From contig NZ_VRYH01000001.1 in the NCBI RefSeq assembly GCF_008079445.1, positions 629,196 to 693,195 of the forward strand: DNA of 64,000 nt, in the 5' to 3' direction. A model generated the notes under the pieces. It searched no databases. It worked only from the letters and a program-made list of their open reading frames with translations, and was not told where the DNA came from. Below, piece after piece: positions 13,522 through 54,808 of this stretch. Positions within the stretch are counted from its first letter, which is position 1; every line of letters starts with the position of its first letter. The translations under genes were made by a program, and so were the position numbers. Source of the stretch: Aidingimonas lacisalsi. Lineage in GTDB: Bacteria > Pseudomonadota > Gammaproteobacteria > Pseudomonadales > Halomonadaceae.

Positions 13522-13901
13522 TGGTGGAGGCGGCGGGAATTGAACCCGCGTCCGCCGGTACTCGCTCTTCGGCTCTACATGCTTAGCTTCGTCTTTTGCT
13601 TTAACGCTGCTGACTCCGACGAACAGGATGCAGCAACGCGATTCTTCTTCGATTTAACGACTGACGTGAAGACGCCGCCAGCCGCGATCCCATCAGTCTT
13701 AGCTCGTATCCCGTCCGTGATGAATGGGCACATCACTTTCGGGCCAGGCTAACAACTAGCAGTTGTTACGCTGCCAGTGCGCCTTGAGCGTAGTTGTCGT
13801 CGTTTGCGACTATTTTATCGTGATGCTGGATTTACGAGATACATCACACTCTCGGCATGCACCTAGGAGGTTGTCACCGGCGTCGAAGCCATGTCGCCCC
13901 C
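13522..13901 (-). ncRNA. ssrA: Transfer-messenger RNA (tmRNA)
   Basis: About 380 nt. The 5' end GGGGGCG pairs with the 3' CGCCTCC to form the tRNA-like acceptor stem (one G-U pair), followed by A and an encoded CCA; the T-arm reads GGTTCAATTCCCGCC-like on the minus strand. The internal tag frame lies at 13807-13766 and encodes ANDDNYAQGALAA followed by TAA, giving a 13-residue degradation tag with the usual ALAA end and a Q-G insertion relative to the ten-residue Pseudomonas tag. It rescues stalled ribosomes with SmpB, encoded just upstream. A plus-strand 82-residue frame across its 3' end is a common artefact. Confidence 0.97.
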
Positions 13902-38153: not shown

Positions 38154-38240
38154 GCCGAAGTGGTGGAATTGGTAGACACGCTATCTTGAGGGGGTAGTGA
38201 CCTTACGGTCGTGCGGGTTCAAGTCCCGCCTTCGGCACCA
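38154..38240 (+). tRNA. tRNA-Leu (anticodon GAG)
   Basis: 87 nt with encoded CCA. Acceptor GCCGAAG pairs fully with CTTCGGC; the anticodon loop TTGAGGG gives GAG; a long class II variable arm is present; the T-arm is GCGGG-TTCAAGT-CCCGC. Downstream of secG. Confidence 0.96.
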
Positions 38241-38336: not shown

Positions 38337-38413
<77 letters not shown>

Positions 38414-51071: not shown

Positions 51072-52458
51072 TCTGGTTTGGGGCGGACTGTCGGCGTCGT
51101 TTACGAGAACGCCGTTTTTTGGGACGACTGTTCGGTCCTGTATCGACCTTACCCAGTAGGCGATGTCTTTCATGGTCATCAGCCTCCTGGAAAGCAGACC
51201 ACCACTGACCGAGGCCCGGTTCTATCTCACCGGCTTTCTCTCGCAATAGCAGGAAATCGTAGGCGGCGCGGAAGCGTGGATGATCTCGGGTCTGAAAAGC
51301 GCGCTTGCCGTTGCGACGTGGCAGGCGTTGTTGCAATTCCCAGATGTCGCGCATAGGCAAGCTGAATCGCTTGGGGATGGCGATGTGCTGGACTTCACGT
51401 GTGACGGCTTGCTGGGCAGCGGTTTGTTGTGCGGGAACGGGGGGCATCCCTTCGTCTTCCAATGTGTGTTGCCGCTGAACCATGCCAGGCCACAAGAAAG
51501 CGGCAAACAGGAATGCCGGCGTCACAGGGCGATCCTGGTGAATACGGGCATCTGTACTGGTGAGAGCCTGCTCAATCAGTGCTTCAGCCCAAGGCAGTTC
51601 GTGCATGGATTCTTCCGCTTCGGGAAACAGCATCGCGAACAACTGGTACTCCCTGAGCATTCGGAACGTGTCCAGTGCATGTCCCGCGAGGAAGAGCTTG
51701 AGAACTTCATCGAATAGGCGTGCTGGTGGAATCTGAAGCAGCAACGGTGCTAGCTCGTGGATTGGCGATGCGGTGTCGGCGTCCAGTTGGAAGCCTAGCT
51801 TGGCCGCGAACCGGACGGCTCGCAGCATCCGCACGGGATCCTCTCGGTAACGCGTTTCGGGATCGCCGATCAGGCGTAGCGTGCGAGACTCGATATCCCT
51901 GGCACCATCGGCCCAGTCATGAATCGAGAAGTCGGCAATGTTATAGTAAAGCGCATTGACCGTGAAATCCCGACGTCTTGCATCCTCTTCGATATTACCC
52001 CAGACATTGTCGCGCAGCAGAAGCCCCTCTTCCGACTGACGCGAGACATGTTCACCATGATCATCGTTGGGCCGCCCGCGGAACGTCGTGACTTCGATGA
52101 TTTCCCGACCGAAGCGAACGTGGACGATGCGAAAGCGTCGACCGATGATGCGCGAGTTTCGAAAGAGATCACGCAACTGCTCTGGGGTGGCATCAGTGGC
52201 GACATCGAAGTCTTTCGGTTGTTTGCCAAGCAGAGCATCTCGAATGCAGCCTCCGACCAGATAGGCCTCAAAACCGGCGTTATGTAGTCGATAGAGCACC
52301 TTCAGTGCGGCATCGGAGAAGAGGCTTCTCGAGACCGGATGATCTTCACGAGGAATGATACGCATACCGGGTGATTGTCCGGCACCTTCCTGAGTGGCGA
52401 AAAAATTTTTCAAACGTTCACCGGGGTGCTGTAGAAAGCGGGTAAATCCTTTGAACAT
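51064..52458 (-). CDS. pcnB: Poly(A) polymerase I
   Basis: Adds poly(A) tails that promote RNA decay. 464 residues: nucleotidyltransferase core with YLVGGCIRDALLG and 'KDFDVATDATPEQL', 'RRDFTVNALYY', head-domain RNA-binding region, and a C-terminal tail very rich in R and K. Start MFKGFTRFLQHP at 52458; a frame reaching 52485 adds nine residues. It follows the CrcZ-like RNA as in Pseudomonas. Confidence 0.96.
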   Translation of the reverse strand: MFKGFTRFLQHPGERLKNFFATQEGAGQSPGMRIIPREDHPVSRSLFSDAALKVLYRLHNAGFEAYLVGGCIRDALLGKQPKDFDVATDATPEQLRDLFRNSRIIGRRFRIVHVRFGREIIEVTTFRGRPNDDHGEHVSRQSEEGLLLRDNVWGNIEEDARRRDFTVNALYYNIADFSIHDWADGARDIESRTLRLIGDPETRYREDPVRMLRAVRFAAKLGFQLDADTASPIHELAPLLLQIPPARLFDEVLKLFLAGHALDTFRMLREYQLFAMLFPEAEESMHELPWAEALIEQALTSTDARIHQDRPVTPAFLFAAFLWPGMVQRQHTLEDEGMPPVPAQQTAAQQAVTREVQHIAIPKRFSLPMRDIWELQQRLPRRNGKRAFQTRDHPRFRAAYDFLLLREKAGEIEPGLGQWWSAFQEADDHERHRLLGKVDTGPNSRPKKRRSRKRRRQSAPNQND

Positions 52459-52586
52459 GCAGCGATCTAGACTCGCGGTTGGCAAAAGACTTCAAGTGTA
52501 GCCGACCACCGACACATTGGGAACCATATGTTGGGCCATGGGAACGCCTCGTATCTGTCGTCAGCATGGGTGGTGGCTTGCGAGCT

Positions 52587-52595
52587 ACTATAGCA
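52587..52595 (-). promoter_or_regulatory. Extended -10 promoter for pcnB-folK
   Basis: Minus strand TGCTATAGT: extended -10 with TATAGT; the -35 is poor. It lies between the crcZ terminator and pcnB, about 130 bases before the start codon. Confidence 0.45.
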
Positions 52596-52687
52596 GGTGA
52601 AGCCGGTGCTAGCAGTTTCTCTTGCCGTTAGCAACGATATTGCTGGCAGCCTGAACTGGCAGGTAGGTCCCGAGCTGTAATGATGTA

Positions 52688-53183
52688 GAAAGGGGAGGCC
52701 TGATGGCCTCCCCTTAAAGCAAGCATTCAGCATCCATGCTGCTGATTTTTCTTCGTGATGGCGCATCGCCTTGAATACGCACCACGGTCATTAAAAATCA
52801 TTCGGGTAAGCGATCGACTTGTTATTGGTGCTTGACCCCTGCACGACCGTCTCGTATTCAAAACAATAATCCAACCACGACGGTAGAGAAACTACCTTCC
52901 TTCGGCTTGTTATTCTTGTTGCCGAAGATGCATCTCTGACGAGCTTGTTCTTGTTATTGCCCGTACTCGATGCGTCGCGTCCTGAACCGGACCCTCGATG
53001 CTTTTGTCATTGTTATGACCGAGCCGCAACCCATTATGCCTTGTTGTTGTGTTGGCATGTGGTTGCGTTATGGCACTGACCGTTTGTTGTTGTTGGCGGT
53101 TGTGCTATGCCGAAACGATACCGCGTTGTTGTTGTTTGGCTGAACCGGATAGTCGGCGTTTGTCCGGGAATTGTTCTTCTTGG
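52688..53183 (-). ncRNA. crcZ: CrcZ-like Hfq-titrating regulatory RNA
   Basis: No protein gene fits this stretch between cbrB and pcnB, the exact position of crcZ in Pseudomonas. On the minus strand it has a sigma-54 type promoter, about 495 nt of RNA and a strong terminator. The RNA carries about eight A-rich motifs of the AAnAAnAA kind at (plus coordinates) 53171-53181, 53126-53137, 53083-53094, 53041-53053, 53002-53014, 52945-52958, 52907-52920 and 52819-52826. Several are loops closed by short GC stems. In Pseudomonas such motifs bind Hfq(-Crc) and relieve catabolite repression; function here is inferred from position and motifs. Confidence 0.82.
52690..52715 (-). terminator. Terminator of the CrcZ-like RNA
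   Basis: Eleven-bp stem AAGGGGAGGCC / GGCCTCCCCTT with an ATCA loop; the 3' arm ends in TTTCT. Confidence 0.9.
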
Positions 53184-53194
53184 TCTATATAGTA

Positions 53195-53208
53195 GCAGAA
53201 GCCATGCC
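53195..53208 (-). promoter_or_regulatory. Sigma-54 promoter of the CrcZ-like RNA
   Basis: Minus strand TAGGCATGGCTTCTGCTA: GG and GC separated by exactly ten bases, close to TGGCACN5TTGCW. Start predicted near 53183. An A/T-rich patch just upstream (53213-53236) could bend DNA or bind IHF. Confidence 0.75.
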
Positions 53209-53283
53209 TATCAATAAAAAAATGATAAAAAACAGGTAGTTAATTTGGTGTCGAATCAATACGGAAGTCGAATCCGCCGAATG

Positions 53284-53334
53284 TGTTACCCGACATGCAG
53301 CCTGATGGGGCATATGCTGTGTGAGAAGGTAACA
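53284..53334. promoter_or_regulatory. Candidate CbrB enhancer site
   Basis: Perfect 7-bp arms TGTTACC (53284-53290) and GGTAACA (53328-53334), centred about 126 bases upstream of the predicted sigma-54 start, a suitable enhancer distance. TGTTAC/GTAACA words are recalled as part of CbrB sites in Pseudomonas; spacing here (37 bases between the arms) is longer than I remember for those. Confidence 0.55.
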
Positions 53335-53413: not shown

Positions 53414-54808
53414 CTAGCTGGCGGAACGGCCGCGCGTACTCCGTTTGCGAGGGATTCCAAGACGTTGCCGGCGTTCCCAAAGACATTTGCGGCTGATTCC
53501 CAATTTTTGCGCCAGCTCGGTTTCACTCATCTGATCCTGGTGTTCCAGGACGAAATGCTGAAAATAATCTTCGAGCGAGAGCTCATCGTCATTGAGTGGG
53601 GCTTCGGGGTTGCTGAAATGCTGTCTCGGTGGCGATGCCGGCCCAGGGGGCGGCGCACCGCGGGGTGTCGCGATTGGCCGCAATCCCAGGTCGTCCGGAT
53701 GGATGAGATGGCCTTCTGCGAGTATGACGCCACGTTCCAATGCATTTTGCAGCTCTCGGACGTTGCCCGGCCAAGGGTAGTCGCGAATCTCGCGACGTGC
53801 TGTGCGTGAAAGCTTGAGTCCTGGTCGATGATGGCGCTGACAGGCGCTTTCGAGCAGTGCGTCGGTAATCTTCAAGATATCGTCCTCACGGTCACGCAGG
53901 GGGGGCAAGTCTATCTGCATGACATTGAGGCGATAGTAAAGGTCGAGTCGAAACTCGCCGTTCCGCGACAAGGCATGCAGGTCCCGGTGAGTGGCTGCAA
54001 TCAGGCGCACGTTGACATGCCGTGTCTCGATCGAACCTATCTTGCGGATTTCTCCTTCCTGAAGAACGCGAAGTAATCGAGCCTGGGCATCCATCGGCAA
54101 CTCGCCGATTTCATCGAGAAACAGTGTCCCACCATCGGCGGCTTCGACGAGTCCGGTACGTGCAGCATTGGCGCCGGTAAAGGCGCCTTTTTCATGACCG
54201 AAGAGTTCGGACTCGATGAGTGTTTCCGGAATGGCAGCACAATTGACGCAAATCAGCGGCGCCTTGTTGCGTTGGCTCTGCTGATGGATGGCGCGTGCAA
54301 CCAATTCCTTGCCGGTACCGGATTCGCCCTGGATCAAGACCGTCACATCGGCGGGAGCCGTCTTGCGAATTCGTGAATAGACAGCCTGCATGGCGGCACA
54401 GTCGCCGGTCATTGCCGGTGATTCCTCTTGAGGAGACGCGATTTCCGAGCCAGCGGTGCGGCCATATTGCTGTAATGTCTTGTCAACGGTTTCCAGCAAT
54501 TCGTCATGGTCGAAGGGCTTGGCGATATAGTCCACGGCCCCCTGTTTGAGTGCATCGACCGCGGAACGCATGCTGGCGTAACTAGTCATGATCAGGACCG
54601 GCGTCGGTGATGCGATCTCGATCAGAGCCGTGCCCGGGTCGCCCGGGAGGCGCAAGTCGCCAATGACCAAATCGTAGCTTTGCGGATCCAATGACCTGGC
54701 ATCAGTCAAGGATTCCGCTTCACTGACTTCATGGTCATGACGTTCCAGCAGCCGCCGCAGGGCGCTGCGGATAATGGCTTCGTCTTCAACGATTAGAATT
54801 CGGCTCAT
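53414..54808 (-). CDS. cbrB: Sigma-54 dependent response regulator CbrB
   Basis: NtrC-type activator of 464 residues: receiver domain (1-115, phospho-acceptor near D51 in GDLRLPG), AAA+ domain with GESGTGKE (161-168), GAFTGA (208-213) that contacts sigma-54, Walker B near 226-234, and a Fis-type HTH at the C-terminus ('ETELAQKLGISRKCLWERR'). It should activate the CrcZ-like RNA just downstream. Start MSRILIVEDE chosen; one five codons upstream is also possible. It overlaps cbrA by 23 bases. Confidence 0.94.
   Translation of the reverse strand: MSRILIVEDEAIIRSALRRLLERHDHEVSEAESLTDARSLDPQSYDLVIGDLRLPGDPGTALIEIASPTPVLIMTSYASMRSAVDALKQGAVDYIAKPFDHDELLETVDKTLQQYGRTAGSEIASPQEESPAMTGDCAAMQAVYSRIRKTAPADVTVLIQGESGTGKELVARAIHQQSQRNKAPLICVNCAAIPETLIESELFGHEKGAFTGANAARTGLVEAADGGTLFLDEIGELPMDAQARLLRVLQEGEIRKIGSIETRHVNVRLIAATHRDLHALSRNGEFRLDLYYRLNVMQIDLPPLRDREDDILKITDALLESACQRHHRPGLKLSRTARREIRDYPWPGNVRELQNALERGVILAEGHLIHPDDLGLRPIATPRGAPPPGPASPPRQHFSNPEAPLNDDELSLEDYFQHFVLEHQDQMSETELAQKLGISRKCLWERRQRLGIPRKRSTRGRSAS

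Follow-up and report, generated by a model that had tools for sequence, protein, structure and literature searches.

A predicted CrcZ-like RNA gene between cbrB and pcnB in Aidingimonas lacisalsi, with similar loci across its order

Sponge RNAs of the RsmY/RsmZ type carry repeated GGA motifs for RsmA/CsrA and are under GacA control. A closer counterpart of the locus described here is CrcZ (CrcY/CrcX) of Pseudomonas and Azotobacter, the Rfam family RF01675. In P. aeruginosa, CrcZ is 407 nt long, has six A-rich stretches and titrates Hfq, according to the CrcZ passages of PMC4063720. In the passages that treat the system, a 2018 paper and a 2022 review describe CbrAB and the cbrAB-crcZ synteny as exclusive to the Pseudomonadaceae (PMC6296734, PMC8871633). 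A section of another paper places CbrA/CbrB in Pseudomonas and Azotobacter and mentions a different system for Chromohalobacter (PMC7918813), and cbrAB transcripts are reported from marine microcosms in part of a further paper (PMC5073097). Among open-licence papers, no literature on CrcZ in Marinobacter or Oceanospirillales was found. Where CrcZ and Halomonas occur in one paper, the CrcZ passage concerns Stutzerimonas in one case, and in the other (PMC9049629) Halomonas appears in the reference list only.

We analysed a 64-kb window (64,000 nucleotides) of the genome of A. lacisalsi, a halophilic relative of Halomonas, in which a sequence-only reading had proposed a CrcZ-like RNA gene downstream of cbrB and had correctly named Halomonadaceae as the host family. 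Read along the minus strand, the locus consists of cbrA (57746-54786; histidine kinase, 986 aa), cbrB (54823-53414; receiver and sigma-54 activation domains), a gap and pcnB (52458-51064; poly(A) polymerase). From the end of the cbrB stop codon at 53414 to the likely pcnB ATG at 52458, the gap measures 955 bp and holds one RNA unit. It had been said to lack a plausible protein gene, and no ORF of at least 80 aa lies wholly within the RNA unit. A 99-aa ORF (52467-52766, minus strand) starts in the 3' end of the RNA and passes through its terminator. In an alignment inspected by eye, the frame of this ORF is shifted in one relative (L009) and meets an early TAA in three others (L011, L056, L105). 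Elsewhere in the window, Rfam identified a tmRNA gene (13522-13901, minus strand) and two tRNA genes (38154-38237 and 38337-38410, plus strand). The genome also has cas1 and cas3 by Pfam (L254 of contig C1, 6431-7348 and 12277-14958, both on the minus strand).

Upstream of the RNA unit, the sequences TGTTACC (53328-53334) and GGTAACA (53284-53290), noted before as enhancer-like, are indeed present and form part of an 18-nt inverted repeat that is 78% matching. TGTTAC equals the forward CbrB subsite of P. putida as given in the promoter passages of PMC6296734. The GTAAC of the reverse subsite starts 80 bp upstream of the sigma-54 box. This box, of the GG-N10-GC form that had been predicted, is AGGCATGGCTTCTGC (53195-53209), with GG at 53208-53207 and GC at 53196-53195. 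Its first base differs from TGGCA, the usual form among relatives, and inspection of the window by eye did not reveal R1, the middle CbrB subsite that pseudomonads have.

The predicted non-coding RNA is about 495 nt long, with predicted ends at 53183 and 52689. About eight A-rich motifs had been expected; exactly eight AAnAAnAA motifs were counted, spread from 53181 to 52746. Motif 1 is AAGAAGAA (53174-53181), motifs 2, 3 and 4 are all AACAACAA (53129-53136, 53087-53094 and 53041-53048), motif 5 is AATAACAA (52951-52958), motif 6 is AACAAGAA (52913-52920), motif 7 is again AATAACAA (52819-52826) and motif 8 is AAGAAAAA (52746-52753). In 1000 dinucleotide shuffles, the mean count was 0.56 and the maximum 4. 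When 495-nt segments were scanned in steps of 5 across the 64 kb on both strands, only the RNA unit held five or more motifs. The predicted fold of -172 kcal/mol lies below all 100 shuffles (mean -129.9, sd 5.6; z -7.5). Several of the motifs fall in predicted loops, such as a 14-nt loop closed by CTTCGGC/GCCGAAG; motif 6 lies in a loop closed by a 7-bp hairpin stem (52900-52906 and 52921-52927), and motif 7 is within the 3' hairpin core described below. The 11-bp terminator of the sequence-only reading (52690-52715) was borne out, with arms at 52690-52700 and 52705-52715 that are complementary at 11 of 11 positions and TTT next to them. Intergenic DNA that is A-rich by chance and happens to match a promoter would fit the off-consensus first base of the window promoter, but the shuffle and whole-window controls, the conservation of the unit in 27 sequences and the recurrence of the layout in 52 of 71 loci make this explanation extremely improbable.

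The Rfam CrcZ covariance model had been suggested as a check, and here the RNA scored 11.8 bits against a cut-off of 95. The RNA is not accepted as a member of RF01675, and both the CrcZ and the P24 matches in the window, being below their cut-offs, were excluded as evidence. The P24 match (RF00629) is a weak one that ends in the terminator (18.7 bits where 100 are needed, E 0.018), and the RNA is not a member of that family either. Among 20 loci given to the CrcZ model, six reached the cut-off: five of family code f21 (306.8-334.4 bits) and L021 of f2 (102.5 bits). The sixth f21 locus, L019, has incomplete sequence; judged from these CrcZ scores, f21 would be the Pseudomonadaceae. None of the seven loci tested from f1, the code of the Halomonadaceae, reached the cut-off. 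As side observations, Rfam 'sRNA P36' matches lie directly after cbrB in L015 (1389-1451, minus strand), L019 (188-248, minus strand), L023 (2951-3011) and L025 (2952-3012). By eye, they coincide with a hairpin, part of which is shared with the CbrB subsites upstream of crcZ, and P36 may be this terminator/enhancer rather than a separate sRNA.

With CrcZ, the window RNA shares its place after cbrB, several AAnAAnAA motifs and a terminator, the CbrB subsites and sigma-54 promoter at equal spacing, the lack of a conserved ORF as far as seen, and a genome with Hfq, RpoN and a Crc-like gene. It differs in its size of about 495 nt and its eight motifs, compared with 407 nt and six A-rich stretches, and in its 3' hairpin core, which is a different one and near-invariant. 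Thus, the proposed CrcZ-like identity stands in the sense that the RNA probably works like CrcZ, as layout, promoter geometry, motifs, partners and conservation suggest, and falls in the sense of RF01675 membership. With sponges of the RsmY/RsmZ type, the likeness is that copies of a binding motif titrate a repressor of translation, whereas the motif (GGA) and the activator (GacA) are not those of the window RNA.

The protein partners of such a system are encoded in the genome. Among solved structures, Hfq is closest to 1u1s, which we take to be from P. aeruginosa, with 66 of 74 aligned residues identical, and RpoN is present. The CbrB of the window, which adjoins CbrA and precedes pcnB, stands at 61-63% to the six f21 loci. 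Pfam gave it a receiver and a sigma-54 activation domain; NCBIfam gave NtrC-type models alone, with all 25 matches listed below cut-off. CbrA matches that of genome G197 at 78% over its full length, and its N-terminal half reaches 32-36% with other long proteins. At E 0.001, its Pfam matches are kinase domains alone, and the SLC5/SSF transporter domain is absent from them, which is a weakness of the case. No Crc, CbrA or CbrB model was among the NCBIfam matches listed. A candidate for Crc sits between pyrE and rph, of which pyrE and RNase PH were confirmed. The two solved structures that it matches best are 2myi, which was deposited under the name Exodeoxyribonuclease III and is presumably a Crc, and 4jg3, a 'Catabolite repression control protein'. 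By eye, the QETK, GDFN and SDH of the genome's separate ExoIII gene are replaced in this protein, as they are in 4jg3. TIGR00633 and TIGR00195 of NCBIfam both name it exodeoxyribonuclease III above cut-off and no Crc model was among the matches; we therefore call it Crc-like. An order-wide Crc search (188 of 244 genomes at E 1e-45) was set aside, as it did not separate Crc from exonuclease III paralogs.

We put the probability that this is a CrcZ-like regulatory RNA gene, driven by CbrB and sigma-54 and titrating Hfq, at roughly 80%. From the DNA itself we infer that the RNA would be transcribed, depend on CbrB, bind Hfq and have a physiological effect. In the proposed mechanism, exhaustion of the preferred carbon source would lead CbrA to activate CbrB, which would bind the TGTTAC/GTAACA sites and turn on the sigma-54 promoter. 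The RNA would then draw Hfq-Crc away from the A-rich sites at which mRNAs for uptake and catabolism start translation, and removal of Hfq-Crc would lift their repression.

A-rich motifs at translation starts were counted in 400 kb of A. lacisalsi and in three other genomes. In an earlier count, 16 of 324 genes had fallen into the bin at the start, and this count was redone with a better gene caller. In A. lacisalsi, 13 of 302 genes carried the motif at the start, 7.7-fold over other bins. The outgroup G276, in which no RNA was found beside cbrB, gave 12 of 316 (3.4-fold), the f21 genome G094 gave 4 of 311 (1.6-fold) and the outgroup G367 gave 2 of 331 (1.4-fold). The start enrichment does not discriminate, and the f21 genome, expected to be positive, is also weak. 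Among the motif-bearing genes from the first caller, 8 of 15 encode uptake proteins by Pfam, including three DctP as well as TctC, SBP_bac_3, BPD_transp_2, Sugar_tr and BCCT, compared with 6 transport proteins among 20 random genes. This bias toward uptake proteins is suggestive only.

The layout had been expected beyond the pseudomonads, in a Halomonadaceae genome. It was found there, and the scope proposed was too small, as a large part of the order has the arrangement. Of the order's 244 genomes, 208 gave a CbrB match with an E of 1e-100 or better, and these cover 95 of 113 genera. For a closer comparison, the strict layout was defined as an [AT]GGCAY-N7-GC box that has GTAAC 78-83 bp before it and at least two motifs after it. 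The 71 cbrB loci compared were chosen, not random: the 30 best CbrB matches, L157 and 40 loci picked across families, with 10 of 47 family codes left out. The strict layout was found in 52 of them, from 22 of 37 families, and 46 of 65 loci (21 of 36 families) had it outside f21. A looser form was found in 11 more loci and neither form in 8. Of the 8 loci without the promoter, L167 and L192 have 7 and 3 A-rich motifs before pcnB, and only 171 bp of L157 were covered. Across 70 loci, 56 of 75 TGGCAY-type sigma-54 boxes after cbrB have a GTAAC that starts 79-82 bp upstream, and a second cluster of spacings lies near 100-104 bp. An IHF-like site is found between GTAAC and the box in 30 of the 75, compared with 14 of 1500 shuffles. 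An order-wide count of the pattern (155 of 244 genomes) was not used, since a reversed control pattern often matches and the matches were not tied to cbrB. A second match to the promoter pattern in the A. lacisalsi genome (L205, G000:C22) lies, by eye, inside an apparent phosphatase gene and was taken as chance.

The number of copies in the strict loci is one in 41, two in 6 and three in 5. The loci with three tandem CbrB/sigma-54 RNA units after cbrB are L016, L017 and L018 of family code f38 and L173 and L198 of f14. Very short versions, with a gap of 243-387 bp and 2-4 A-rich motifs, occur in f24 (L026, L030, L032, L033, L037) and f9 (L169, L197), and look as if they were a minimal sponge. 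The RNAs of different families have place, promoter and motifs in common, and too little sequence or structure to prove a single descent; from synteny, descent from one RNA is likely. Outside the order, the layout was found in none of seven CbrAB loci (L156, L158-L163; 1.5 kb downstream), taken from the 25 genomes that have CbrB matches. In these loci cbrA is beside cbrB, no pcnB was found and each has one A-rich motif within that 1.5 kb; their CbrB identity is 56-60%. As the economical reading, we infer that CbrAB is older and that the RNA was added in an ancestor of the order.

The same arrangement was reached from the promoter alone. A blind scan of public genomes used only the forward site, the reverse site and the sigma-54 box, and matched at least 118 stretches. 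Of the 118 matches listed, 102 have cbrB and/or pcnB as a neighbour, 74 of them both genes, and 98 of these 102 are by title not Pseudomonas, Thiopseudomonas or Pseudomonadaceae. The scan requires GTAACA and all six f21 loci carry GTAACG, so pseudomonads are under-represented by design. In the downstream stretches of the matches listed (up to 450 nt), the mean is 6.0 motifs, compared with 0.73 in shuffles, and 100 of 110 exceed the maximum of 100 shuffles. In the other 16 of the 118 matches listed, the stretch contains no cbrB on the upstream side and no pcnB on the downstream side. Nine of these bear titles of unrelated phyla, have 0-2 motifs and were taken as chance, and L055 and L070 have 3 and 2 motifs. 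In L071, L137 (Motiliproteus MSK22-1), L109, L054 and L043, the promoter pattern is followed by 4-9 A-rich motifs; it is possible that these are extra copies like CrcY/CrcX.

Within the Halomonadaceae, the RNA also has a near-invariant 3' hairpin core (52754-52880 in the window, minus strand; GTTGGATTATTGTTTTGAATACGAG ... GTGCGTATTCAAGGCGATGCGCCATCACG). From the Halomonadaceae, 27 RNAs align, and for 15 of 54 consensus pairs one or more sequences have both partners of the pair changed. In 28 sequences, 17 of 20 pairs of core helix 1 are invariant; in helix 2, the inner helix next to it, both partners change in 4 of 8 pairs. Each of the five measures of core pairing lies above 500 of 500 shuffles, which kinship among the sequences alone can also bring about, and a control with slid partners lowers all five. 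A coding reading of the core was rejected because its length varies by non-multiples of three and helix 2 covaries. Beyond the family, the core model matched Oceanospirillum at E 7.7e-09 and 0.0022, and gave weak matches to copies in L016 and L017 (0.027); these are 4 matches in 100 other loci, with nothing else at E 1.

Such conservation of the core sequence is what an ordinary Hfq-dependent base-pairing sRNA under CbrB and sigma-54, rather than a sponge, would show. What recurs across families, however, is the repeated A-rich motif with the promoter, while the core model has so few matches elsewhere, and we consider this explanation unlikely. The RNA could also have a dual function, in which it titrates Hfq and its core binds a second partner, either a protein or an RNA by base pairing; this would explain why the core is conserved in Halomonadaceae. 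The invariance of helix 1 beside a varying helix 2 favors this idea, as does the persistence of the core in genomes without cbrAB and its extension to Oceanospirillum. Structural conservation alone could, however, serve stability or the presentation of loops, and we regard a second function as doubtful though worth keeping in mind. The reading as a CrcZ-like sponge remains the one we prefer.

Three Halomonadaceae genomes from two genera, all rated 100% complete (G036, G176 and G130, with loci L239, L238 and L237), have the RNA unit before pcnB, complete with sigma-54 box, A-rich motifs, core and terminator. No CbrB ortholog was found in them (matches 39-48% identical, best E about 1e-90) and no CbrA (best matches 32-34%). 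Since the unit is kept in three genomes without CbrA/CbrB, dependence on CbrB is not universal. GTAAC about 80 bp upstream of the box is absent in two of the three, and G036 has one at 78 bp. The 24-nt block of the core has three changes in two of the three. These genomes suggest that the RNA is of use independently of CbrAB. To our knowledge, both the Halomonadaceae 3' hairpin core and the RNA before pcnB without cbrAB are new.

The position of the unit directly before pcnB, where it remains after loss of cbrAB, could also mean that it is an attenuator-like leader of pcnB and not a free RNA. Against this stand the strong terminator, which precedes the pcnB ATG by about 230 bp, and a promoter-like CTACACT box after the terminator, seen by eye in the window and in L237-L239. 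In addition, L164, L185 and L200 have a loosely scored RNA unit with no pcnB match within 2.3-2.5 kb downstream. A pcnB leader is thus very unlikely, and we return to the regulatory RNA of the CrcZ kind.

As a tentative scenario, possible but short of being our expectation, the sponge would be ancestral to the order, presumably Pseudomonadales in the GTDB sense, where it joined an older CbrAB. In the Halomonadaceae, the RNA would have gained a second, invariant module that has a partner of its own; in two genera, it would have outlived its activator and passed to another sigma-54 activator. A control system that has been called unique to the Pseudomonas family appears to be older and more widespread. 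If these loci work, carbon control of Hfq-Crc by a sponge RNA would extend to Halomonas, Marinobacter, Marinobacterium, Oceanospirillum, Thalassolituus and other marine and industrial bacteria, and the Rfam CrcZ family would cover just a corner of the sponge arrangement. The genomes that have the RNA gene but not CbrAB would allow the role of the RNA to be separated from that of its activator.
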